Part shown: piece after piece, positions 18,169 to 30,418 of the stretch
Layout of the letters: every line of letters starts with the position of its first letter
Numbering within the stretch: the first letter of the stretch is position 1
Source: Pseudanabaena sp. BC1403
Lineage (GTDB): Bacteria; Cyanobacteriota; Cyanobacteriia; Pseudanabaenales; Pseudanabaenaceae
DNA length: 32,518 nucleotides
NCBI RefSeq assembly: GCF_002914585.1
Contig: NZ_PDDM01000040.1
Span: forward strand, 1 to 32,518
Direction: 5' to 3'
Notes under the pieces: model-generated
The model's input: the letters and a program-made list of their open reading frames with translations, nothing else
What the model was told of the DNA's origin: nothing
The model's database searches: none
Made by a program: the position numbers and the translations under genes

Positions 18169-18525
18169 CTAGGTTAACTCCAGTGCTGTCTTTAAACAGT
18201 CGTTGACTTTTTGGAGTGAGGAATTCGGTAGCTGCCCCAATTTCCTAAGTATTTTATCTTTACTGAGTGTAAGTAGATTGACGCAGTTAATAACAGAATC
18301 TTGCCTCAATCCAGATTGTTGTCCTTCATGGGTTGTCATCTTGATTAATAATTGCGTTGGTTCTAAAGAGCGTTGGGTTTGGCTTGTGATTTGGACTACG
18401 ATTGTGTTTTTGAGACGTTGATTGTCGCGATCGTTCTGGATTACAAGGACTGGACGAACTTTAGTTTCACTACTCGAAGTGTAAGGATAATCAACTAGCA
18501 CAATATCTCCGCGCTGAATATTCAT
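18169..18525 (-). CDS. MazF/PemK-family toxin (endoribonuclease)
   Basis: The 118-residue protein opens with MNIQRGDIVLVDYPYTSSSE and KVRPVLVIQND, the SH3-like barrel signature of MazF/PemK toxins, in which the RGD(I/V) and RPVLV strands line the RNA-binding face. A middle VVQITSQ strand and QDSVINCVNLLTLSKDKI, corresponding to the family's S-x-hydrophobic core near the active site, follow. It overlaps the upstream antitoxin gene by 4 bp (18522-18525), the usual coupling of toxin to antitoxin. Likely an mRNA interferase; cleavage specificity cannot be deduced. Confidence 0.85.
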   Translation of the reverse strand: MNIQRGDIVLVDYPYTSSSETKVRPVLVIQNDRDNQRLKNTIVVQITSQTQRSLEPTQLLIKMTTHEGQQSGLRQDSVINCVNLLTLSKDKILRKLGQLPNSSLQKVNDCLKTALELT

Positions 18526-18788
18526 GATTGTCTGCGGGGATCGAGATCGTTGTATATATCCATCGCTGGATCGTCCCAGCCTTCTTTCCCGAAGGTTTCC
18601 ATGACAGGAAGATACATATCTTGCAAGAATTGATTGTTTTGTTCTTCAATTAACAGTGCTTTTATTTTTGCATATACTTCTTCGCGAATAAGTACATAGG
18701 TTATGGCTGTATCTGGATCAATGGCACGAGGAGGAGTTTCGACCTGTTTGATGACATCTTGCCTTTGCTCAAGAGTTAGTTCGATCAT
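18522..18788 (-). CDS. Antitoxin of the MazF-like toxin
   Basis: An 88-residue protein with an N-terminal segment (MIELTLEQRQDVIKQVETPP, then RAIDPDTAITYVLIREEVY) that recurs in antitoxins paired with PemK/MazF toxins, and an acidic C-terminal region (EGWDDPAMDIYNDLD) suited to blocking the toxin. It is the first gene of the module, with GGAG (18797-18800 on the opposite strand) about 8 nt before its ATG. The toxin follows with a 4-bp overlap. Name and partner are inferred from position and resemblance. Confidence 0.75.
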   Translation of the reverse strand: MIELTLEQRQDVIKQVETPPRAIDPDTAITYVLIREEVYAKIKALLIEEQNNQFLQDMYLPVMETFGKEGWDDPAMDIYNDLDPRRQS

Positions 18789-19145: not shown

Positions 19146-20672
19146 TTAATTGATATAATTGCTTTTTGAGCCAAATAGTTGAACCTCATCTAAGGATAGG
19201 GTTTCGTCCATATTATTTAATATCTCTTCATCTATCAATGGATAATAATTGATAAGATTTTTCATTTCCTCGCTTAACCATTCCGAATTCCATATTAATG
19301 TATTCGGCTCATTCAACTTTTGGCAGAGTTTTTCTTCAAAATACCTTTCTCTCTGATGCTTCAATATTGCTCTTTGTAGCCAGACCTGCAAATGACCTGT
19401 ATTAGGTATTTTGTCAAATTTATTGATAATGAGATTAATTGTTTCTTCCTTTTCACTTTCTTCAAGGAATAAAAATAACTCACTAAGTATTGCAGTTGAC
19501 ATTGGATATATTCTTGGATTTCTATAAGCAATATCAACAACTATACTAATGAGAACATTGATATTCTGGCTGGTCTTATTCATGGATTTTATTCGCATTA
19601 AAAACTTATTCATTGCTTTAACAAGGCTGCCAGAGTTTGGGTATTTCTTAGCTAAACTATGAATTAGAAAAAGATGTTCTTGTATATTTTTATTTCCTCT
19701 TTTATTGAGAATCCAAAATAATTTGTCAGGTTTAATAGATTCCTCTATAACATTACTTGAAGCTCTAGTTTTATGAGGGTTTAAACACATTCCTAGATCC
19801 ATAAGAATTTCTGTAATATGTTTTACAATAAACTCTGCATCTTGTGGACTATTTGTAAAAACACGATAATCATCTCGATACCGAATTACTTCAAAATCTT
19901 TCAGGTCTTTATTTATAACTCTTTTTGATAATTCAAGATCTACAAAACCTAAAACCATCTCCGCTATAAAATCCATTAAAACACTACCTTGTGGAATGCC
20001 ATTTGTTTGCCCAAATGACATATTTTGAAGATGTGTATCAATAATATTTCCAATAAGATGCTTGTTATGCTTCTCAGCCTTTGCTAATTCTTTAGTATGT
20101 AGCGCCCAAGGAACAGAATGAGTATAAATTGAGCCATAACAGTCTGATATATCAGTGTGTAAAATATAATCAAATTTCAAAGCTAGCTCAATAGACCTTT
20201 GTTCAATAGCTTCCCACCAATTAGTTACTGTCTCTGCTTTGTCAGAACTTTCACTCTCTGACTTAAGAGGTATACTATAACAATTTATATTTTTATTGGC
20301 ACGAAATTCACTGAATCTTTGAACAATTAAGTTCCAGTTGTTCTCTTCTGTTATTTTGTGTACAAGAGATACATATATAGCAGGATGCATTAGCTGAAGA
20401 GGTCGCCAAGAATATCGACCATCTTTATTGTTAAGAAATCTATAGTTTACATTTTCATAGTCACTAGGGAAAGTTGCTTTTGGTTTTCCTTTTTCCATAT
20501 CATGATAACTTCCATAGAAATCGGATAGTAACTTACCTTCAATTTTTTCAGATAATGTATGAATTAGTTTGTCAAATATGTAGTAGCGAGGAAGGTCAAA
20601 GGTAAAGTAACTCTCTGCTTTTATAAAATATGTTTTTGCTTCTGTATGGTTTAGTTCTAAAACATTTTTCAT
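19146..20672 (-). CDS. Reverse transcriptase of the UG/Abi (defence-associated) type
   Basis: The 508-residue protein holds the reverse-transcriptase palm motifs: motif A YILHTDISDCYGSIY with D174, motif B QTNGIPQGSVLMDF (222-235), motif C VIRYRDDYRVF with D267-D268, then GMCLNPHKT and the KLFWILNKRG strand. From about 330 to 500 it is entirely helical in character, without the maturase, endonuclease or integrase domains of group II introns or retroelements. A palm followed by a helical repeat domain is typical of the unknown-group/Abi reverse transcriptases, several of which (DRT systems) defend against phages. I cannot assign the subclass. Promoter at 20730-20757. No HIP1 site occurs in the gene and it is more AT-rich than its neighbours, pointing to recent acquisition. 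Substrate, template RNA and product are unknown. Confidence 0.85.
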   Translation of the reverse strand: MKNVLELNHTEAKTYFIKAESYFTFDLPRYYIFDKLIHTLSEKIEGKLLSDFYGSYHDMEKGKPKATFPSDYENVNYRFLNNKDGRYSWRPLQLMHPAIYVSLVHKITEENNWNLIVQRFSEFRANKNINCYSIPLKSESESSDKAETVTNWWEAIEQRSIELALKFDYILHTDISDCYGSIYTHSVPWALHTKELAKAEKHNKHLIGNIIDTHLQNMSFGQTNGIPQGSVLMDFIAEMVLGFVDLELSKRVINKDLKDFEVIRYRDDYRVFTNSPQDAEFIVKHITEILMDLGMCLNPHKTRASSNVIEESIKPDKLFWILNKRGNKNIQEHLFLIHSLAKKYPNSGSLVKAMNKFLMRIKSMNKTSQNINVLISIVVDIAYRNPRIYPMSTAILSELFLFLEESEKEETINLIINKFDKIPNTGHLQVWLQRAILKHQRERYFEEKLCQKLNEPNTLIWNSEWLSEEMKNLINYYPLIDEEILNNMDETLSLDEVQLFGSKSNYIN

Positions 20673-20792: not shown

Positions 20793-22106
20793 TTAGATGC
20801 CTTCTTTTGCTTCAATTGCAATTATCTCCTTATCCATCACCTTAGAAATATAGGAAGACACCCAAACCGTATAAGCAGGGGAAGCAATACTATGGGTCAA
20901 GAAAACTGCTACAGCTACACCTAACACGCCCCAATTAACCCCAACTAGTAGCGCGATCGCAAAAGCACCTGTAAATAGAATATTCCAAGCGAAATCCCAA
21001 TCAGGTTTATCGATCGCCCAAAGTCCATTAGAAGCAACATTCGCAAAAGGTCGCGGGATTGCTGACAGGCAAATTAGAATTAATAGAGGGATTGCAGGTA
21101 TCCATTTTTGCCCAAAGATAATTGGTACATAAAATGGAGCGAGTCCAGACTGCAAAATTACTAAAGGCAAGATAATCCAAGCAACTCTCTTAAACGTTTG
21201 GAAGTATCTTTCTTTAAATTCTCTTGGCTGACTACGAGCATCACAGAGGTGGGGGAACAATGCCGTATCAAGGGCATTGATCGCACTCATACTAATTCCA
21301 AGACCAGCATTGAAAGCAAAATAATATAAACCTAACGCTTCCACGCCTAGAAATCTACCTGCGATCACATAGTCGAGGTTATTTGTTAAAGTATGCATGA
21401 TTTTTACCCCCAAAACGCTGCGACCAAACCGTACAATTTCTTGCCATCCATTGAGAGTAAATTCGCTGGTTGGTCGCCAAGGATTACTGCGATAATGGAC
21501 AATCACCCAGACAGGAGCCACTAAGACCTTTGGCAGCACGATCGCCCACATCCCAAAGCCAAAGAAAGCAAGGATAATCGTGAGGATATTATCAACAGAA
21601 ACTTGAATGCCATTTGCGATCGCTGAAACATGAAGACGATTCTCGCGATTTGAAAGGGAAGCTTGCACCAAAGCGATCGGAATGATGAGATAGACCGTAG
21701 CCATTACGCAAATAGGTAGGATAATGCGGGGATCGTTATAAAACCAACTGACTGGGAAAGCCGCAATACATTGCCCTAAAAACACTAATCCACAGACAAT
21801 CCAGTTTAGCCAATAGGAAGTTTGGCAAAGTTTCGGTAAGTCATCAGCATCGGCTTGTATGAGTTTTGCCCAGATCCCATTTTGGGTAAATACATTCACA
21901 AATTCATTGGTAGTCAGTACCAATGCCGCCAGACCATAGTCTTCTTTGGTCAATAACCTTGCTAAAACGACCGTCGCAGCTAGTCGAGAAACGCGAATGA
22001 ATAGCTGCGACAAGCCTAGCCAACCGAGATTGCGGAGAAAGCGATCGGCTAATTTTTCTTTAATTACTTTGATGATTTGCTGGACTGCCAAAACAGAGCC
22101 TCCCAT
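20793..22106 (-). CDS. Wzx-type polysaccharide flippase (oligosaccharide flippase family)
   Basis: A 437-residue membrane protein, mostly hydrophobic, with a positive N-terminus followed by FLRNLGWLGLSQLFIRVSRL, then AATVVLARLLTKEDYGLAAL, the recognisable first-helix and YG-loop pattern of the Wzx/RfbX family. These transporters move lipid-linked repeat units from the inner to the outer face of the cytoplasmic membrane. It overlaps the preceding glycosyltransferase gene by 43 bp (22064-22106); a TTG five codons in would shorten the overlap but is a weaker choice. It is the last polysaccharide gene before the reverse transcriptase. Substrate specificity is not readable. Confidence 0.87.
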   Translation of the reverse strand: MGGSVLAVQQIIKVIKEKLADRFLRNLGWLGLSQLFIRVSRLAATVVLARLLTKEDYGLAALVLTTNEFVNVFTQNGIWAKLIQADADDLPKLCQTSYWLNWIVCGLVFLGQCIAAFPVSWFYNDPRIILPICVMATVYLIIPIALVQASLSNRENRLHVSAIANGIQVSVDNILTIILAFFGFGMWAIVLPKVLVAPVWVIVHYRSNPWRPTSEFTLNGWQEIVRFGRSVLGVKIMHTLTNNLDYVIAGRFLGVEALGLYYFAFNAGLGISMSAINALDTALFPHLCDARSQPREFKERYFQTFKRVAWIILPLVILQSGLAPFYVPIIFGQKWIPAIPLLILICLSAIPRPFANVASNGLWAIDKPDWDFAWNILFTGAFAIALLVGVNWGVLGVAVAVFLTHSIASPAYTVWVSSYISKVMDKEIIAIEAKEGI

Positions 22107-23065
22107 TCAGATAGGTATCTTTCCCATGCACCACGCACAGACTCTCTGCCATTATCTCCCCAATTACTCAGAGTTTGCGGTGAAGTTTTGTAGATATGTA
22201 CAACTTTAGCGATCGCCTCTTTGAGAGCCTCTACATTTGCTCCCACAACCAAGCCACAGCGATCGACCTGTTCGACTAGTCCATCTACGCTTGTCACAAT
22301 TACAGGCTTCCCTGCCGCTTTTGCTTCTAGGCAGACGTTGCCCCAAGGCTCCCATCGTGAGGGAATAACGATAACATCGCAAATTTCTAAAAACTGTGGA
22401 ACATTGTTTAACTGCCCCATAAATTGAATACGGCGATCGCCCTCAGCAATTTGTCTGAGTAACTCCTCCTTCTCACCATAGCCACCAATCAGTAGTTCTA
22501 CATCCAAATCTGGCAGTTCTTGCAACGCTTTTAGCAAAAGCTCGATTCCTTTTTGCTCAGAAAATCGACCATAAACGCCGAGAACTAATCTTTCTCCCAA
22601 AGGTTTGGCAGGTACAGTCAAGAAATCATCTAGAACGCGACATTGTTGAATTATGGTCAATTTTCGATGTTTGACCAGTTTATTTTCTAGCATCCAATTC
22701 ATTTGGGCATAGGAAATGGCGATCACTCGATGGGCAATGCTATAGGCGAGTTTCAGCATCAGCCGAAATCTCCATTTAGAAGGGACGTTTATCGCTTCAA
22801 AAGCTTCTGAATAATGATGCTCTTGAATAATTAACTTACTTCGCGATCGCAGCCGCAATAAAGTAAAAATAAACTTCCAAGAACAAGCATCATGGACAAC
22901 GATTAAATCTGGCTTTAATTTAGATCCTTGGGAAAAAACTTCCTGAAGCGTTTGCAGAAAAAAATCAAACTTTTCGCTGAGTGGAGATCTCAGTAAACTA
23001 TTCACTGAAGCCGTCACACCGCCCACATTGCGATCGATCAGAATATGTAAAATGCTAGGTTTCAT
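22064..23065 (-). CDS. GT4-family glycosyltransferase (tandem copy 2)
   Basis: The 333-residue retaining GT-B enzyme has an N-terminal acceptor domain beginning KPSILHILIDRNVGGVTASV, a C-terminal donor domain at about 170-320 with GVYGRFSEQKGIELLLKALQ, IGGYGEKEELL, and the EX7E motif in WEPWGNVCLEAKAAGKPVIV. It would transfer a sugar from a nucleotide donor to the lipid-linked intermediate on the cytoplasmic side. It is a close paralog of the adjacent gene at 23104-24102, clearly arisen by tandem duplication, and overlaps the flippase gene by 43 bp. Sugar and linkage are unknown. Confidence 0.88.
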   Translation of the reverse strand: MKPSILHILIDRNVGGVTASVNSLLRSPLSEKFDFFLQTLQEVFSQGSKLKPDLIVVHDACSWKFIFTLLRLRSRSKLIIQEHHYSEAFEAINVPSKWRFRLMLKLAYSIAHRVIAISYAQMNWMLENKLVKHRKLTIIQQCRVLDDFLTVPAKPLGERLVLGVYGRFSEQKGIELLLKALQELPDLDVELLIGGYGEKEELLRQIAEGDRRIQFMGQLNNVPQFLEICDVIVIPSRWEPWGNVCLEAKAAGKPVIVTSVDGLVEQVDRCGLVVGANVEALKEAIAKVVHIYKTSPQTLSNWGDNGRESVRGAWERYLSEWEALFWQSSKSSK

Positions 23066-23103: not shown

Positions 23104-24102
23104 CTATGATTTCCTAATTAGCTGTTCAGATAGCTTATCCCATTCTATTAGATATCTCTCCCATGCGCCGCGCACCGATTCTCTACCATTATTACCCCAA
23201 TCAAGGAGCGTTTGCGGCGAAGTTTTATGAATATTCACAACTTGCACGATCGCCTGTTTCAACGACTCGGCAGTTGGTTCAGCAATTAATCCACAGTCAA
23301 TTACCTGTTCGGTCAGTCCATCAACATTCGTCACAATTACAGGTTTAGCAGCAGCTTTAGACTCAACACAGACATTGCCCCAAGGTTCCCACCGAGAAGG
23401 AATGACAGAAACATCGCAGGTTTCTAGAAATTTGGGGACATTTGTCAACTTTCCTACAAATTGAATACGGCGATCGCCATTCGCCATTTGTCGCAATAGT
23501 TCTTCCTTTTCACCATAGCCGCCAATCAACAGGTCTATATCTAAGTCGGGTAGCCCTTGCATTGCTTCGAGTAACAACTCGATTCCTTTTTGATTAGAAA
23601 ATCGACCATAGACTCCAAAGATCAACTTTTCCCCCAAAGGCTTAACAGGTAAAGCCAAGAAGTCTTCTAGTACACGACATTGCTGAATTACTGACAATTT
23701 TTGAGGATTGACCAGTTTGTTACTTAGCATCCATTTACCTTGGGCGTGGGAAACTGCCACTACATAATTTGCGATCGCATGTGCTAATTTTAAAACAAGT
23801 CGAAATCGCCATTTAATAGGTACATTAATTGCTTCAAAAGATTTTGAATAATGATGATCATGAATAAGGACTTTGCCATGCGATCTCAAGCGCCGTAAGA
23901 GAGGCAAAATGCTCCATGATGATGCATCGTGAACGATGATTAAATCTGGCTTTAAGGTAGATATTTGTGCTAAAGCTTCGTCAGGCGTGAGCAGCAGAAA
24001 GTCATATTTCTCAGCCAGACGCGATCGCATCAAGCTATTAGTACAAGCAGTTACCCCACCTACATTGCGATCGCTTAGTAAATGTAGAATTTTAGGTTTC
24101 AT
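23104..24102 (-). CDS. GT4-family glycosyltransferase (tandem copy 1)
   Basis: A 332-residue paralog of the next gene, aligning along its whole length: RNVGGVTA near the N-terminus, HDHHYSKSFEAINVP, GVYGRFSNQKGIELLLEAMQ and the EX7E motif in WEPWGNVCVESKAAAKPVIV. The start at ATG 24102 (MKPKILHLL) is preferred to 24132 because it matches the start of the paralog and lies before the conserved GG-x-T block. The gap to copy 2 is 38 bp, so they are likely one transcript. The C-terminal ends show more divergence than the donor domain, suggesting related but perhaps different substrates. Confidence 0.88.
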   Translation of the reverse strand: MKPKILHLLSDRNVGGVTACTNSLMRSRLAEKYDFLLLTPDEALAQISTLKPDLIIVHDASSWSILPLLRRLRSHGKVLIHDHHYSKSFEAINVPIKWRFRLVLKLAHAIANYVVAVSHAQGKWMLSNKLVNPQKLSVIQQCRVLEDFLALPVKPLGEKLIFGVYGRFSNQKGIELLLEAMQGLPDLDIDLLIGGYGEKEELLRQMANGDRRIQFVGKLTNVPKFLETCDVSVIPSRWEPWGNVCVESKAAAKPVIVTNVDGLTEQVIDCGLIAEPTAESLKQAIVQVVNIHKTSPQTLLDWGNNGRESVRGAWERYLIEWDKLSEQLIRKS

Positions 24103-24228
24103 AAAGTTTAAAAAATTTTTTGTAGCGCACAACCTTACTTGTTATCAAAAAAGATCCCCTTTTTATTATCTACTTAATTTGCCTAATTCTATAGTAATGA
24201 TTGAGTTAGTTAGAAAAAATCAAAAATC

Positions 24229-24420: not shown

Positions 24421-25494
24421 ATGAGGCTACTTGCTAAATACATACTTAAAGTAATTCCTTTAGCCCTTATATCGATCACTGCGTCATTTGCCTTTGTAAA
24501 TGGGGTAAATGCCATTCCACTGTCGCAGGGCGATCGCTTAAGGGTTTTAATTCCTGAGGGAGAACTATTTAGTGGGGTGTTTGAAGTCAATCTAGATGGC
24601 AAAATTCAGGTTCCATATCTCGATCCAATTTCAGTGCAGGGGCTAGAAATTAATGCGGTAAAGCAAAAGATTTATGACGCTTTAATTGCTCAGAAATATT
24701 TTCAACCAAAATTTTTGCAAGTCAATGTCAGCATCTTGCAATGGTCGGCTATTCAAGTAACGGTTTCGGGGGAAACATTTCAACCAGGAAGAATAATCGT
24801 CAATTCGCGATCGGCAGAAGATCGATCGCAACAGCAAAGTGTGTCTTCGGGAGACTATCCTCCTGAACGATACCTAACAGCAGCTCTGCGTGGCGCGGGT
24901 GGAGTTATGCCCAATGCTAATATTAAAGAAATTCTTTTGATTCGTAATGGTAAAGAACAAAAGATTGACTTCACAGGCATTTTTACAGGTGATCCTGTGG
25001 AAGATGTTCCTCTAGTAGCAGGCGATCGCATTATCGTGTCTAGATTGCCTCAACCTCAAAATCAATTCGTGCGACCTTCCCAAATCACACCTCCCGGTAT
25101 TCGAGTATTTCTCTCAAATCTAACTAATTCAGCTACTAGTAATTCTAGTTCGGCAATTAAATCCGATGGTTCTTCCTTTCCTTATGGGGCGAGATTTTCT
25201 CAGGCAGTTGTGTCCGCTAACTGTGCTGGAGGTGTAGTTACTGCCCATGACCGACACGCTTTACTTGTGCGGGTTGATCGCATTACAGGCGAGACTAGTT
25301 CGTGGGATCGTTCTATAGAGCAGATTATGAGAGATTCCAAGAATGATAATGACAACCCTTTTTTGATGCCTGAAGATACAGTTGCCTGCTATGACTCCAC
25401 AACTACAGATGTGAGAGATGTGTTTTCTACTATCTCCGATGTTCTGAATCCTTTAAATCTGCTCTTCGGCATCTTTGGAGGAAACAAAAAATGA
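24421..25494 (+). CDS. Wza/GumB-type polysaccharide export protein
   Basis: The 357-residue protein begins with a signal peptide (MRLLAKYILKVIPLALISIT, cut near residue 31, FVNGVNA), then a Poly_export domain (about 33-115: LSQGDRLRVLIP, DGKIQVPYLDPISVQG, YFQPKFLQVNVS) and an SLBB-like segment (VTVSGETFQPGRI). No lipobox cysteine is at the cut site, unlike E. coli Wza. A C-terminal third (VRPSQITPPG onward), with two or three cysteines, is less conserved. It should form an outer-membrane export channel with the co-polymerase encoded next, whose ATG overlaps its stop by 4 bp (ATGA at 25491-25494). Confidence 0.87.
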   Translation: MRLLAKYILKVIPLALISITASFAFVNGVNAIPLSQGDRLRVLIPEGELFSGVFEVNLDGKIQVPYLDPISVQGLEINAVKQKIYDALIAQKYFQPKFLQVNVSILQWSAIQVTVSGETFQPGRIIVNSRSAEDRSQQQSVSSGDYPPERYLTAALRGAGGVMPNANIKEILLIRNGKEQKIDFTGIFTGDPVEDVPLVAGDRIIVSRLPQPQNQFVRPSQITPPGIRVFLSNLTNSATSNSSSAIKSDGSSFPYGARFSQAVVSANCAGGVVTAHDRHALLVRVDRITGETSSWDRSIEQIMRDSKNDNDNPFLMPEDTVACYDSTTTDVRDVFSTISDVLNPLNLLFGIFGGNKK

Positions 25495-26918
25495 CCGATA
25501 TTTCTACTTCCTCATTGAAACGACTTTCTATATTGGGTAAGAATAATTTCCTTAGATACTCCCGATATATTGCCTTGGGGCTTGTTGCTAATGTAGGACT
25601 ATGGGGAATGGCGCTATTCTATCTAAAAGTAACGCCACCAGTTTATGTCAGCAAGTGGGCGATGATTATGCCTGGGAATGGGCTGGGCGTGAATGTTAGT
25701 TTGGCAGATATTGGACAGACTTCTGCTTCTAGTAGTTCTCCATTTGGGGGGTCAAGTATGGATCCAAGAGCTAACTATCAATTTATTCTGACAGATGAGA
25801 GTCTTTTAGAAATTGCTGCCGAAAGTCAGAAAATTCCACTCAGCAAATTTGGGAAGCCCAAAGTCAAGTTAGTCGATAACACTTCGATCATGGAGATGGA
25901 AATCGGGGCAAGGACACCTGAACAGGCTAGGGAAAATGCCACAGCCGTCATAGAAGCTTTGCAATCTCGGTTAAATCTTCTAAGAGCAGAGGAAATTGAT
26001 AAGCGCGGAGAAAACAACGATGTAACCTTGAAAGATGCTAGAGACAAACTGCAATTCGCACAAAAGAAACTTTCTGACTATAAGGCAAGTTCAGGCTTAA
26101 GCTCGTCAAATCAAGTTGGTGAGCTATCTACAAATATTGAAACACTTCGCAAGCAAAAAGCCGAGATATTTGCCCAAAAAGAACAAATTTCTAGCCGCTT
26201 TCAAGAACTATCTGATAGCTTGGGAATGACTGTCCCAGAAGTAGCTGATGCTTTTGTCCTCCATGCCGATCGCCAGTTCCTCCAAAATTCTAAGGACTAT
26301 ACCGAGGCAAATACCACATTAACTGTCATGCAGACAAAGTGGGGAATCAATCATCCTTTAGTCGTCAAAGAGGCGGCAAGGCAACAATCTGCTAGAGATG
26401 CTATGATTGAGCGTGCTAGTGCGATTCTTCGCAAGGAAGTCACGCCAAAGTATATTGAACATATAGTGTTGGGTGAAAATTCGGGCTCAAGTAGAGAAAA
26501 TTTATTTCGCGATCTGATTGGTTTTCGGGTTGATCAGCAAGGTGCGATCGCGCAAAATGAGGCGCTACAGGCTCAAATCTTCCAGCTAGAAGATCGCTTG
26601 CAGTCTTTAGTCCAAAAGCAAGTCGCCTTAGAGAACTTACAACGTGAGGTTCAAATTGCCGAAGCCGTATTCGCCTCTACTTTGGCAAAAATAAATTTAG
26701 CAAAATCAGATATTTTTACAGCCTATCCGTTAATACAGCTTCTTTCTAAGCCTTCGCTACCTGAAAAAAAGTCTGCGCCCCAACCAACCGTTGTGTTTAT
26801 AGGAACTGGTGTCGGTTCAATTCTCGTCACAACAGGCTTAGTCATGCTGTGGTGGCGTAAAGAGATCAAAAGCAAAATAGTTTTATCAAAGAATAAACCT
26901 GTGGAAGTAGCCCAGTGA
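25491..26918 (+). CDS. Wzz/Wzc-type polysaccharide co-polymerase without kinase domain
   Basis: The 475-residue inner-membrane protein has two membrane segments, at about 22-44 and 432-455, that flank a large periplasmic part with coiled-coil character (about 155-245 and 360-410), the layout of Wzz/GumC/Wzc chain-length regulators. The tyrosine-kinase part of Wzc, with Walker motifs and a Tyr cluster, is absent; the protein ends 20 residues after the second segment. Kinase control, if any, must come from a separate protein. It overlaps the upstream gene by 4 bp and the next by 4 bp (GTGA), giving a tightly coupled trio. Confidence 0.85.
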   Translation: MTDISTSSLKRLSILGKNNFLRYSRYIALGLVANVGLWGMALFYLKVTPPVYVSKWAMIMPGNGLGVNVSLADIGQTSASSSSPFGGSSMDPRANYQFILTDESLLEIAAESQKIPLSKFGKPKVKLVDNTSIMEMEIGARTPEQARENATAVIEALQSRLNLLRAEEIDKRGENNDVTLKDARDKLQFAQKKLSDYKASSGLSSSNQVGELSTNIETLRKQKAEIFAQKEQISSRFQELSDSLGMTVPEVADAFVLHADRQFLQNSKDYTEANTTLTVMQTKWGINHPLVVKEAARQQSARDAMIERASAILRKEVTPKYIEHIVLGENSGSSRENLFRDLIGFRVDQQGAIAQNEALQAQIFQLEDRLQSLVQKQVALENLQREVQIAEAVFASTLAKINLAKSDIFTAYPLIQLLSKPSLPEKKSAPQPTVVFIGTGVGSILVTTGLVMLWWRKEIKSKIVLSKNKPVEVAQ

Positions 26919-28264
26919 AACGAGAAAATATCCAACCTGAGAATTTTGCCGAAAAGGTTATTTGGTATTCAATCATTTGGACTTATTGGTTCTACTTGAT
27001 TGGAGGGTTGTATATCTTAGGAGCAGTTTTAGCTTGGATCTTGTTTTTTCATCTTTGTCATAAATTATGGAAACAAAACGAGCAAACTCCTGAAGAAGAA
27101 AAGATACATATTCCTTGGTCAATCTGGGTGTGGATTGCAGGAATGATAATGATGGAAGTTGCTCTCGTGATTGGTCATCTGGATTTTAATCTAAGCTTAG
27201 GAGAAATCATTAAATCTACGATTGGTTGGGCAAAAGGATGGGCTTTACTAGCCCTTTATCCTTTAGTGGGATGTCTTAAGATTCGACCAAAGTTAATGTA
27301 TCGTGCGGCAGCATTAGTTTGTAGAACGAGTCTGCTAATTTCTATTCCATTTGTTTTAGCATTCTATCTTCGTTTACCTCAAAAACTTTATGTTTCTCCT
27401 CTTAGGGCGATCGGAGGACCTAGTGATGCTTTTTTTGAGGTAATGCTTTATGAAATTGATCCTGGGGAAGGTAAGCCTAGATGGAGACTATATACCCCTT
27501 GGGCTCCTGCTGCTGGATTTGTCGCGAACATCTACTTCTTTATGATCATTCATGAGAAAGATCTAAGATTGCGCTGGCTAGGAATTGCAGGTTGTGTGGT
27601 CATTTGTCAAATTTCAGCCTCACGTCTGGCTCTAGTCTGTTTGCCTACGGTTTGGTTGGTGAGTCTATATATGTCAAAGCTCAGCCGTCCTCCCTTTCTA
27701 ATTGCATCTGGATTTGCCAGCTTTTTTATAAGCATTTCCACTACTCAAATAATTGAGTCAATCAATGATTTTTCAGAAAAATTTTCGGCAGCCCGAAAAG
27801 ATTCTTCGCGTGTGCGTGCAGCTCTAGGAAGGATAGCAGTCTATCGATGGGAAAACGAAGCTCCCATTTGGGGGCATGGAGTTGTTGTTAAAGGACCTCA
27901 CATGGTAGAGTTCATGCCTATTGGCTCTCACCACAGTTGGTTTGGATTGCTATATGTTAAAGGAATAGTTGGATATATATCACTTGCTATTCCTATGGGT
28001 TGTAGTTTTATCCATATGTTATATCTTTCTCAAAGGAGCACACCTGCTAAAGTTAGTTTATGTATGGTAATGGTGCTGTTTTTCTATACTTTTGGTGAAA
28101 ACCTAGAAATTTTGGCATATTTGTTTTGGCCAGGTTTAGTGATGATGGGAATTGGAACACAGCCCAAGTATATAGAAAAAGAAAAAGAAAAAGATATAGA
28201 TATAGAATATGAAGAGATCATCGAAGATGATTCTACGAGTAACGAAGTTCTACCTAATAGTTAA
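26915..28264 (+). CDS. Wzy/O-antigen ligase-like membrane protein (polysaccharide polymerase)
   Basis: A 449-residue protein with about ten hydrophobic segments. A long outer loop shows the Wzy_C/WaaL pattern: RWENEAPIWGHGVVVKGPHM then PIGSHHSWFGLLYVKGIVGY, with paired His and Gly typical of O-antigen ligases and polymerases. It would join repeat units on the outer face of the membrane. The C-terminal tail is highly charged (KEKEKDIDIEYEEIIEDD). The start is GTG at 26915, which overlaps the previous stop. Its stop (28262-28264) directly abuts the stop of the convergent fusion gene at 28265. Polymerase rather than ligase is inferred from the locus. Confidence 0.8.
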   Translation: MKRENIQPENFAEKVIWYSIIWTYWFYLIGGLYILGAVLAWILFFHLCHKLWKQNEQTPEEEKIHIPWSIWVWIAGMIMMEVALVIGHLDFNLSLGEIIKSTIGWAKGWALLALYPLVGCLKIRPKLMYRAAALVCRTSLLISIPFVLAFYLRLPQKLYVSPLRAIGGPSDAFFEVMLYEIDPGEGKPRWRLYTPWAPAAGFVANIYFFMIIHEKDLRLRWLGIAGCVVICQISASRLALVCLPTVWLVSLYMSKLSRPPFLIASGFASFFISISTTQIIESINDFSEKFSAARKDSSRVRAALGRIAVYRWENEAPIWGHGVVVKGPHMVEFMPIGSHHSWFGLLYVKGIVGYISLAIPMGCSFIHMLYLSQRSTPAKVSLCMVMVLFFYTFGENLEILAYLFWPGLVMMGIGTQPKYIEKEKEKDIDIEYEEIIEDDSTSNEVLPNS

Positions 28265-30418
28265 TTATACAGCGCTATTTTTGCGATTTAGTAACACCAT
28301 GATTGTTCTGAAGATTAACCACAGATCGTATTTTAAGCTCCAGTTTTGCTTATAGGATAAATCAAATTCCATTACCTCTTCAAAGCTTTTGACACTCGAT
28401 CGCCCATTGACCTGCCATACCCCAGTCAGACCAGGCTTAACATCCAGACGACTCCATTCAGTCATTTTTTCGTCAGTATATTCATTTTCTATCTCATAGA
28501 GTCCAACTTCGCCGAAGGTCGGTGGTCTTGTCCCGACAAGGCTCATATCGCCCATCAAGACATTCCAGAACTGGGGAAGTTCATCTAGGCTAGTTTTCCG
28601 CAGAATTCGTCCAACTTTAGTGACCCTCGGATCATTACTATTCTTAAAGAATTTGCCGCCATCATTACTGGTACTGCTTCCATCTGTTGAATCAGAAATC
28701 TGGTTAGTAACTTTTTGCTTCAACATTTCCGCATTTTTTACCATTGAGCGAAATTTCCAGATCCCAAAAGGTTTGCTCATCAGCCCCGCTCGCTTTTGCA
28801 TGAAAAGCACTGAACCATGGCTTTCCAATTTAATAGCGATCGCAATCGGGATGGATAAAATTGCAGTTATTCCTAACCCAATTAAGGAGCCGCATATATC
28901 AATGAGGCGCTTCGGGAGACTGCGAACCGATGGATGAACTGGAACTCTAGGATCTAACTCGATCGCAGGATAAAGAAAATACATTAAATAGGCGATCGCA
29001 CATAATACTGGAACATTAATCAGCTTTTGATAGATGTGATATAAAATTACTGCAAAACGATTTGAATGACTTTGCGATCGTGGGTTTTTATTTCTCGATA
29101 AACGGTTCGTACGTGTTGCTGACTCGATGTTAAAAATACTTGCTAGCTTGGTCATTTTTAAAATCGATAGCACCTGTGGATTAACACTCCAAAGCACTAA
29201 TTCCGTTGGTTCTGGTTTGACTGATTGAATATCTTTCTGACGAAGGACTTTTAGACAAGACACCAATGCGCCGATACCTGAGCTATCCATAAACTCGGTA
29301 TTTGACATGTCAATAATAATTTTGCTAAAGCTCTCATCATCTTGGCACAATTGTTGAAAATCTTCCTTCAATTTCCTTGCCTCAGGATTGAAGATGTTTT
29401 GAGGTGTACTAATTAAGACGGTTTCATTAAAACTAGTGATTTGGACATCATTCAATCCAAGCTTTGCTGATTCCTGCTCATTGCCAGTAGGAATATATAT
29501 AGCTTCAGGATAAAGTTCAGCGATCGCCTCGGAACGCACAATCAGTAAATCCAAGGCTTTCCATGAGCGTAGAAGACGAGCGGACAGGCTCAGATCTCGA
29601 ATGCGGGTCTTCGACTCCACAAAGATGACTTTGCTCTTGTATAAGTACTTAGCCGCTAACAAAAATGGAACCGCGACTCCAGCGCCAGTTGACAGCACAA
29701 TTTCGGGGCGCTCTGTTCGTAATACGCTAATTGATAATAATAAATTCCGTGCCAAATTAGGCAAATTACGATTTGTGGGACTATGCGCCCAGTATGCTTT
29801 TTCCTCACTTAGTTCAGTATTTGTTGTACCAGTTTTAAATGTGACCCATGTTCTTTGTGCATAGGTTTGCCAATATTGCTTCAGCCCCTGCATCCCTTTA
29901 AAATGTCCGCCAGATGAGCATATCAGCATGAGTTTGTCATTGTCTTTACTGGGATAGCGATCGCCCAAATAGTCACATAAAAGCTTATCCTCAGCAAAAT
30001 TTGGAGAACCATTGGAAATCATAATTAGTTTTAAAAATTTCACTAAATCTGCTGGGGATCTAGCAATTAACACACCTTGATTTTCTAGTTCATCCGCCAT
30101 TTCTAATTGATGATTGTCCACATGCTCATGGAATTTGACTGTACGGGGTACTAGTATATAAGGCTTATCGAATTCTTCGAGTAATAATGCACTACCCTCG
30201 CCACAATGCGCAATCACCACACTTGCTTGCTTAACGAGCTCTTTAAATTGTGTCTCTGGAATTATTTTACTAATCCGAACATTGTCAGGCAATCTTGTTG
30301 AAGCCCCATACTGGATGACTACTTCTTCGTTAATGATACCCTCTTTAATTAACAAACTGATCCAATCCATTAACGAATTGAATGGATACTGCTCAGTGCC
30401 AACTGTAACAAGTATCAT
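28265..30418 (-). CDS. Four-domain fusion: PssE-like GT28 - PssD-like - STAS - phosphoglycosyl transferase
   Basis: The 717 residues combine four parts. 1-155: PssE/Alg13-like GT28 domain (MILVTVGTEQYPF; HCGEGSALLLEEFDKPYILV). 160-310: PssD/Alg14-like domain (LMLICSSGGHFKGM; STGAGVAVPFLLAAKYL), the membrane partner of PssE, normally a separate gene. 318-436: STAS domain with IIIDMSNTEFMDSSGIGALV, keeping the DSSG phosphoserine site (S380). 455-490: hydrophobic segment. 500-717: polyprenyl-phosphate sugar phosphotransferase (KRLIDICGSLIGLG; PFGIWKFRSM; catalytic D612-E613 in LDELPQFWNVL; PGLTGVWQV; YDLWLIFRT). One chain could thus charge the lipid carrier with a sugar phosphate and add the second sugar, under STAS control. 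The intact frame argues against a sequencing join. Monocistronic, converging on the Wzy-like gene with no spacer. Confidence 0.9.
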   Translation of the reverse strand: MILVTVGTEQYPFNSLMDWISLLIKEGIINEEVVIQYGASTRLPDNVRISKIIPETQFKELVKQASVVIAHCGEGSALLLEEFDKPYILVPRTVKFHEHVDNHQLEMADELENQGVLIARSPADLVKFLKLIMISNGSPNFAEDKLLCDYLGDRYPSKDNDKLMLICSSGGHFKGMQGLKQYWQTYAQRTWVTFKTGTTNTELSEEKAYWAHSPTNRNLPNLARNLLLSISVLRTERPEIVLSTGAGVAVPFLLAAKYLYKSKVIFVESKTRIRDLSLSARLLRSWKALDLLIVRSEAIAELYPEAIYIPTGNEQESAKLGLNDVQITSFNETVLISTPQNIFNPEARKLKEDFQQLCQDDESFSKIIIDMSNTEFMDSSGIGALVSCLKVLRQKDIQSVKPEPTELVLWSVNPQVLSILKMTKLASIFNIESATRTNRLSRNKNPRSQSHSNRFAVILYHIYQKLINVPVLCAIAYLMYFLYPAIELDPRVPVHPSVRSLPKRLIDICGSLIGLGITAILSIPIAIAIKLESHGSVLFMQKRAGLMSKPFGIWKFRSMVKNAEMLKQKVTNQISDSTDGSSTSNDGGKFFKNSNDPRVTKVGRILRKTSLDELPQFWNVLMGDMSLVGTRPPTFGEVGLYEIENEYTDEKMTEWSRLDVKPGLTGVWQVNGRSSVKSFEEVMEFDLSYKQNWSLKYDLWLIFRTIMVLLNRKNSAV

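Follow-up and report, generated by a model that had tools for sequence, protein, structure and literature searches.

A four-domain protein from Pseudanabaena

We analyzed a stretch of 32,518 nucleotides from Pseudanabaena sp. BC1403 (contig NZ_PDDM01000040.1; hereafter, the window). A single open reading frame (ORF) on its minus strand, at 28265-30418 and with an ATG start, encodes a protein of 717 amino acids, which we call P0001. From the N to the C terminus, P0001 comprises a PssE-like GT28 domain, a PssD/Alg14-like domain, a STAS domain, and a monotopic phosphoglycosyl transferase (PGT). Frame 1 of the plus strand has many stops across the same positions. The features of P0001, each with its basis, are:

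28265..30418, minus strand: P0001, PssE-PssD-STAS-PGT, 717 amino acids (ORF, Pfam, relatives)
30020..30418, minus strand: PssE-like GT28 C-terminal domain, residues 1-133, with H71-C-G-E-G (PF04101; NCBIfam PssE below cut-off)
29492..29935, minus strand: PssD/Alg14-like domain, residues about 162-309, with GGH172 (PF08660 at 222-309; NCBIfam PssD at 164-308, below cut-off)
29117..29428, minus strand: STAS domain, residues 331-434 (PF01740; sequence match to TM1442 and SpoIIAA; fold match)
29282..29284, minus strand: codon of Ser379, the first Ser of DSSG and putative phosphoacceptor (aligned with the Ser of SpoIIAA)
28949..29056, minus strand: linker, residues 455-490, with a hydrophobic stretch (alignment; helices in the predicted model)
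28289..28912, minus strand: monotopic phosphoglycosyl transferase domain, residues 503-710 (PF02397; WbaP and PglC by sequence; PglC by fold)
28580..28585, minus strand: catalytic dyad D612-E613 (translation, alignment)

All four Pfam matches are above the gathering score: Glyco_tran_28_C at residues 1-133 (E = 1.1e-11), Alg14 at 222-309 (2.8e-13), STAS at 331-434 (2.9e-12), and Bac_transf at 503-710 (1.2e-62). The motifs H71-C-G-E-G (PssE), GGH172 (PssD), D378-S379-S380-G381 (STAS), and D612-E613 (PGT) are intact. An earlier note, made from the DNA letters and their translations, had placed a GT28 domain, its PssD-type partner, a STAS domain with DSSG, and a PGT with D612-E613 in this one frame, without naming its strand, and both Pfam and the motifs confirm this.

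Both halves, GGH172 and H71CGEG, and Pfam matches over the gathering score place P0001 with the PssD/PssE (Alg14/Alg13-type) enzymes. (The archaeal relative Agl24 is reported to be inactive once the His of GGH is replaced; PMC8993221.) NCBIfam also matches P0001 to PssE (1.4e-23), PssD (9.7e-26), and EPS_sugtrans (7.7e-77), each under the curated cut-off. P0001 fails the equivalog test for PssD (90.9 vs. 110 bits) and for PssE (83.4 vs. 120 bits): judged by these profiles, its halves are related to PssD and PssE but are not the same equivalogs. NCBIfam's ant_ant_sig model matches below its cut-off as well (43 vs. 53.45 bits).

The domain (PF02397) and the Asp-Glu dyad make P0001 a monotopic PGT, and the dyad is kept in all 29 fusions that reach that region. 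P0001 does not pass as a large PGT of the WbaP or WcaJ type, as there is no match to PF13727 or to a membrane-bundle Pfam before the PGT core, and TIGR03022/3023/3025 match by their C-terminal part only. The linker at residues 455-490 is longer than in the aligned two-domain relatives.

In a fold search with the predicted structure, the best match of the PGT domain was PglC (E = 2.3e-10, root-mean-square deviation (rmsd) 8.2, TM-score 0.69 by target). The STAS domain matched TM1442 (rmsd 1.8), SpoIIAA from its complex with SpoIIAB (rmsd 1.6), and RsbV from the RsbV/RsbW complex (TM-score 0.84). MurG was matched weakly and with a poor overlay (E = 2.5e-6, rmsd 16, TM-score 0.37), which the reversed order of the two glycosyltransferase halves may explain. 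In a sequence alignment, the DSSG of the STAS domain lines up with the DSSG of SpoIIAA, whose first Ser we take to be the phosphoacceptor position (Ser58).

The fusion is widespread in the genus

We searched 58 genomes for the fusion, of which 26 belong to the window's genus. At least one full-length fusion is present in 25 of those 26; the other genome (G006) is 82% complete and has neither of the two forms described here. Form A, which includes P0001, is found in 21 genus genomes. The 20 copies from outside the window are 72-87% identical to P0001, full-length, and free of internal stops, so we reject a frame error or mis-assembly, and two genes joined by error, which the earlier note had raised, can be set aside. 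Form B, a second paralogue, is found in 22 genus genomes and is 50-53% identical. Beyond the genus, the four-domain order occurs in four other genera (G028, G029, G032, which is cut by a contig end, and G054). In a tree of PGT domains, the 30 fused proteins are one side of a single branch (SH-aLRT support of 87): the fused forms make one clade. There is also a three-domain PssE-STAS-PGT protein without the PssD half (L164, 6635-8056), and a kinase gene is convergent with it.

STAS-PGT is the common architecture

Most relatives of P0001 are STAS-PGT proteins of about 310-390 amino acids. We sampled 386 genomes of the phylum with a profile that spans the STAS domain, the linker, and the first PGT helix. 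The profile matches 127 of the 386 genomes at E = 1e-15, and full-span, stop-free matches are found in 90 genomes from 17 families, so we reject the idea that STAS-PGT is a peculiarity of the window's genus. (A full-span match in G230 was dropped because of stops; L258, which is among the 96 loci analyzed below, has its PGT broken between frames.) An HPS[VI] motif is present in the linker of 80 of the 96 STAS-PGT proteins. When we scanned named genomes and considered the best 80 of 469 loci, all 80 were STAS-PGT and all were cyanobacterial; pssD and pssE were not found in the examined stretch of any of these 80. In the PGT tree, the split between STAS-PGT proteins and control PGTs has a support of just 11, too low to argue for a single origin of STAS-PGT.

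Both arrangements, fused and separate, occur, and the earlier note's concern that the homologs might always be separate genes does not apply. Among the 96 STAS-PGT loci, 11, from five families, have both pssD and pssE within 2.5 kb, and 7 of these 11 also have a kinase gene. In lactic-acid-bacterial plasmids (among 15 of 1014 plasmid records), genes for a PGT, pssD, and the second glycosyltransferase half adjoin, and the STAS part of our query has no match at those loci, so the enzymatic trio can do without STAS. Also, re-fusions of split PssD/E-type genes are on record (PMC8993221). P0001 might then be a plain fusion for substrate channelling, with STAS as an inherited passenger. But in the relatives that we examined, including those without PssDE, STAS immediately precedes the PGT, and its motif is conserved, which makes this explanation very improbable.

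Two proteins of this kind have been linked to polysaccharides in the literature. XssP is described as the priming glycosyltransferase of synechan, and its deletion eliminated bloom formation and suppressed the accumulation of extracellular polysaccharides (PMC8205485); the words STAS and anti-sigma are absent from the main text of that paper. Our sequence was taken from the plasmid pSYSM of Synechocystis sp. IPPAS B-1465, where our candidate for XssP (L321, 11983-12936) is a STAS-PGT protein (STAS at 9-99 and Bac_transf at 124-310). We identified it by its place beside NACHT/STAND and response-regulator genes and as the sole annotated sugar transferase in that stretch. Its motif is DSAA, so the Ser at the phosphoacceptor position is kept. 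The other protein is all4160 of Anabaena PCC 7120, reported to be a glycosyltransferase that carries a STAS domain at its N terminus (PMC8256260). Synthesis of the heterocyst envelope polysaccharide is reported to depend on all4160, which is located outside the HEP island (PMC4390870).

Many STAS-PGT genes have a kinase gene as a neighbor

Among the 96 STAS-PGT loci from outside the genus, 38 have a gene for a small HATPase_c_2 kinase (SpoIIAB/RsbW-type) within 1 kb. Of these kinase genes, 37 are downstream on the same strand, and for 29 the gap is at most 150 bases. Kinase neighbors occur in 12 of 16 families; one example is L102, from Microcoleus vaginatus HSN003, where the kinase gene adjoins the STAS-PGT gene. 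As a control, we considered 40 loci that encode a PGT without STAS (L281-L320; 32 from the search of 386 phylum genomes and 8 from the search of 58 genomes), and none of the 40 has such a kinase within 1 kb (P = 1.3e-7, Fisher exact test; because the loci are related, this is only indicative). We therefore reject kinase neighbors as a general trait of PGT genes. At 2 of the 40 control loci, there is a lone STAS gene within 4 kb, which could be a two-gene version of the same idea. In the named-genome set, whose species partly overlap with these, 31 of the 80 loci have the kinase. All 12 kinase ORFs that we compared with Pfam passed the cut-off for PF13581 (HATPase_c_2); eleven of these lie beside STAS-PGT genes and one (L159) is 2.5 kb away.

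The neighboring kinases are also related to each other. In a tree of 71 kinases, 42 of the 43 neighbors of STAS-PGT genes are in one fork (support of 84, not starred) and none of the 28 other kinases is inside it. (The others come from a search that yielded 30 loci of 45 matches in nine genomes, plus four kinases of the window's genome; of the ten sequences behind the kinase profile, six were taken from STAS-PGT neighborhoods, and the profile may favor that clade.) The exception is the neighbor at L167, which has a long branch and lies outside the fork. Within these limits, the tree does not bear out the idea that all HATPase_c_2 kinases are alike.

Other partners are less common: a SpoIIE phosphatase gene is within 3 kb of 7 of the 96 STAS-PGT loci, and a lone STAS gene is within 4 kb of 9. 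Four loci (L219, L247, L255, and L263) share the gene order pssD, pssE, STAS-PGT, kinase, STAS, and a convergent phosphatase. According to Pfam, the phosphatase at L219 carries a response-regulator domain.

A model for switchable priming

From the observed domains, motifs, conservation, neighborhoods, and kinase clade, we infer activities, phosphorylation, and a direction for the switch. We propose that P0001 initiates the repeat unit of a Wzx/Wzy-type exopolysaccharide and that the STAS domain makes this priming step phospho-switchable. We give this reading a probability of roughly 0.6. The C-terminal monotopic PGT would move a sugar-1-phosphate onto the lipid carrier phosphate. The PssE and PssD halves, whose order is reversed relative to MurG, would together make up a single GT-B glycosyltransferase, which would attach the second sugar to that lipid, and GT4 glycosyltransferases, Wzx, Wzy, Wzz, and Wza would complete the polymer. 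As to the STAS domain in front of the PGT, in the wider family the SpoIIAB/RsbW-type kinase encoded beside the PGT would bind it and phosphorylate DSSG at its first Ser; a SpoIIE phosphatase would remove the phosphate; and the phosphorylation or the kinase-bound state would set the activity of the PGT. By analogy with SypA and HmpV, the unphosphorylated state is probably the active one. P0001 itself may have descended from a STAS-PGT protein that worked with its own kinase.

The same neighborhoods could be read the other way around, with the STAS domain as a sensor arm: STAS that is bound to the PGT would titrate the kinase, the kinase's real target would be a lone STAS protein or a sigma factor, and the PGT would report the status of initiation to a transcriptional switch. 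The lone STAS genes near 9 of the 96 loci fit this idea, as do five loci with two STAS proteins beside one kinase (L170 and the four with the shared gene order). Most kinase-bearing loci have no lone STAS gene nearby, though, and we consider the sensor arm quite improbable.

The position of Ser379 is Ser in 174 of 174 two- and three-domain proteins and in 28 of 30 fusions. The next residue varies: it is S in 162, C in 11, and M in 1 of the two- and three-domain proteins, and S in 24, A in 5, and T in 1 of the fusions. Because the rows of the alignment are related, this pattern is conservation rather than a tally of independent events. Within form A, Ser379 is kept in all 22 aligned proteins, including that of G032.

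Evidence against switching, especially for P0001

Several observations weigh against switchable priming. First, many of the genes lack a nearby kinase. There is no kinase within 1 kb of 58 of the 96 STAS-PGT loci, including 45 of the 50 from one family (f28). At the XssP locus, 24.9 kb was examined and no match to an HATPase_c_2 kinase (none within about 12 kb), SpoIIE, PssD, or PssE was found. None of the 47 distinct four-domain genes is flanked by a kinase or phosphatase gene, with examined flanks of between some 100 bases and more than 10 kb (mostly 1.5-3 kb, wider at ten loci, and just 0-450 bases on one side of a few). In G054, the only partner-type gene near the fusion is a lone STAS gene at a distance of about 5 kb. 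Any kinase that acts on P0001 would need to be encoded at another site in its genome. The window's genome does encode four small HATPase_c_2 kinases, and it has eight SpoIIE matches, but none of the four kinases belongs to the dedicated clade (C23 and C12, at L179 and L180, come nearest to it), which leaves two readings: P0001 is served by some other kinase, or its switch is turning into a scaffold.

Second, some of the fusions have lost key residues. In form B (L352-L371, L026, and L041), His172 of PssD is lost in all 22 proteins (Tyr in 21 and Ala in 1), Gly73 of PssE is replaced by Asp in all 22, and position 379 is Ser in 14, Gly in 7, and Thr in 1, so that Ser is absent from 8 of 22. In the fusion of G028, Ser379 and the His residues of both PssE and PssD are gone. 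These losses imply that the switch and the second step are dispensable in some versions. The dyad is kept in G028, and D612-E613 is intact in all 22 form B proteins. Because form B keeps the dyad while losing key PssDE residues, the conserved core is the PGT and not the PssDE-PGT pair. As judged from the alignment, the PGT is the part that is most strictly kept, while decay is possible in the switch and in the half for the second sugar.

Third, the predicted structure is silent on how the domains are arranged. The earlier note had suggested using a structure prediction to see if the GT28 site faces the transferase. The model (mean pLDDT of 83.7) supports the individual domain folds, but with a pTM of 0.56 the relative placement of the domains is not reliable, and the facing of the GT28 site and the PGT cannot be read from it.

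The lack of adjoining kinases at the fused genes, the absence of the dedicated clade from the window's genome, and the loss of Ser in form B and in G028 would all be expected if the STAS domain were a scaffold that holds the PGT against PssDE, a dimer partner, or some other protein from the cluster, with phosphorylation irrelevant in the fused lineage. There is a precedent in WbaP, where a DUF is reported to stabilize the dimer, which is a structural role, though it also has a regulatory one (PMC10942596). On the other hand, the Ser is invariant in form A and in the 174 two- and three-domain proteins, even as the adjacent Ser drifts in the 174, and the kinase neighbors in 12 of 16 families nearly all belong to a clade of their own. 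We consider the scaffold unlikely, albeit the strongest of the alternatives.

Overall, partner-switching control appears to be the best model for the STAS-PGT family. The earlier note had suggested that the fusion may be switched as a unit. For the family, control via STAS gains support from the kinase and phosphatase neighbors and the invariant Ser; for P0001 as a unit the case is weaker, given the flanks of the fused genes, the kinases of its genome, and the decay of PssDE in form B.

The polysaccharide cluster around the fusion

P0001 is encoded at or beside a polysaccharide cluster, whose other genes in the window are:

24421..25494, plus strand: polysaccharide export protein, Wza-like (Pfam Poly_export; kept in genus clusters)
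25491..26918, plus strand: Wzz-like chain-length protein (by position and appearance; no Pfam match)
26915..28264, plus strand: candidate Wzy-like polymerase (by position and appearance; no Pfam match)
23104..24132, minus strand: GT4 glycosyltransferase (Pfam; 69% identical to its neighbor)
22064..23065, minus strand: GT4 glycosyltransferase (Pfam; genus clusters)
20793..22106, minus strand: Wzx-like flippase (Pfam Polysacc_synt_3)

The fusion and the Wzy candidate are convergent in the window, and their stop codons abut. In five relatives (L046, L047, and L175-L177), there is a collinear run with the fusion first, followed by Wza, Wzz, Wzy, GT4, and Wzx. The Wza-Wzz-Wzy block (24421-28264) is inverted in the window and in its nearest relative (G018) as compared to five other genus loci. 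The tandem GT4 genes vary in number, with one at L046 and two at L047. Provided that no further glycosyltransferases are involved, relatives with one GT4 would be predicted to make a three-sugar repeat, and the window, with two, a repeat of up to four sugars. On the other side of the fusion, there is a GST gene in the window and in 5 of the 7 genus loci that we inspected. The cluster also occurs in G054, which belongs to a different family; there, the fusion is placed between GT4 and Wzx. Form B of the window's genome lies apart from any such cluster (13 kb viewed).

The earlier note had also proposed that the fusion couples the first two committed steps. This is supported by the domain content, by the intact motifs, by the location at or beside a Wza-Wzz-Wzy-GT4-Wzx cluster, and by relatives that have the same enzymes as neighboring genes.

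A reverse-transcriptase-like gene (19146-20672, minus strand; RVT_1, 2e-14) adjoins the polysaccharide cluster. Further along are two small overlapping genes (18169-18788, minus strand) that, by eye, resemble a MazF/PemK-type toxin-antitoxin pair.

Comparison to known systems

Among proteins with a STAS domain, the closest to P0001 are XssP and all4160. XssP is a STAS-PGT protein in a Wzx/Wzy cluster but differs from P0001 in lacking PssDE and in having DSAA as its motif. Like P0001, all4160 combines STAS with a glycosyltransferase and has a role in polysaccharide synthesis, but by its published description it has no PssD or PssE. In Rhizobium leguminosarum, PssA, PssD, and PssE are a priming PGT and a two-half glycosyltransferase, as in P0001, but they are described as separate proteins (PMC9961541). 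The sugar transferase, pssD, and glycosyltransferase genes of lactic acid bacteria likewise encode the same enzymes as separate proteins, with no STAS match among the plasmid matches listed. The Alg13-Alg14 fusions of Entamoeba and Dictyostelium have the same reversed order, with the C-terminal half of the MurG-type enzyme before the N-terminal half, but they belong to the eukaryotic N-glycan pathway, and where PMC8993221 describes them it does not mention PGT or STAS.

Regulation of this kind also has parallels. SypE-SypA in Vibrio fischeri and HmpU-V-W in Nostoc punctiforme are reported to control biofilm or hormogonium functions with a serine kinase or phosphatase and a STAS protein; unlike in P0001, SypA and HmpV are stand-alone STAS proteins, and their descriptions name no enzyme target (PMC4517449, PMC6495340, PMC8256260). 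MlaB, from MlaFEDB, is a STAS protein that belongs to an enzyme complex instead of acting on a sigma factor, but the complex is an ABC transporter and MlaB is a separate subunit (PMC7367683). Large PGTs of the WbaP type have an accessory domain before the monotopic PGT core, to which a regulatory role has been assigned, a hint that a PGT can be regulated through its accessory domains; the accessory part is a membrane bundle and a nucleotide-sensing DUF, unlike the STAS and GT28 domains of P0001 (PMC10942596). CapM is reported to be activated by a regulatory kinase (PMC10942596).

Implications

Bifunctional PGT fusions (PMC10942596), re-fused PssD/E-type genes (PMC8993221), and the STAS glycosyltransferase all4160 (PMC8256260) are already in print. 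In the literature that we searched, from which subscription papers are mostly absent, we did not find the four-domain order, the association with kinases, or the decay of the paralogue, and no paper turned up that combines "STAS domain" with "phosphoglycosyl transferase".

The way in which cells time the use of scarce lipid carrier for exported polymers is described as poorly understood (PMC10942596), and for several STAS proteins that regulate biofilm and motility the target is described as undefined (PMC4517449, PMC6495340, PMC8256260). We tentatively suggest, at slightly less than even odds, that cyanobacteria direct a partner-switching module at the very enzyme by which lipid carrier is committed to exopolysaccharide, which would give post-translational on/off control of slime, sheath, or envelope synthesis. 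In the four-domain fusion, such control would reach the first two sugars, and the missing output of STAS regulators like SypA or HmpV could follow the same logic. A STAS domain inside the priming enzyme, with an adjoining kinase gene in many relatives, poses a direct biochemical question that is tractable in Synechocystis PCC 6803 (XssP) and Anabaena PCC 7120 (all4160). The genus paralogues, with form A complete and form B carrying a degenerate second-sugar half, offer a natural comparison. In these cyanobacteria, the first enzyme of slime production may be the point at which it is switched.

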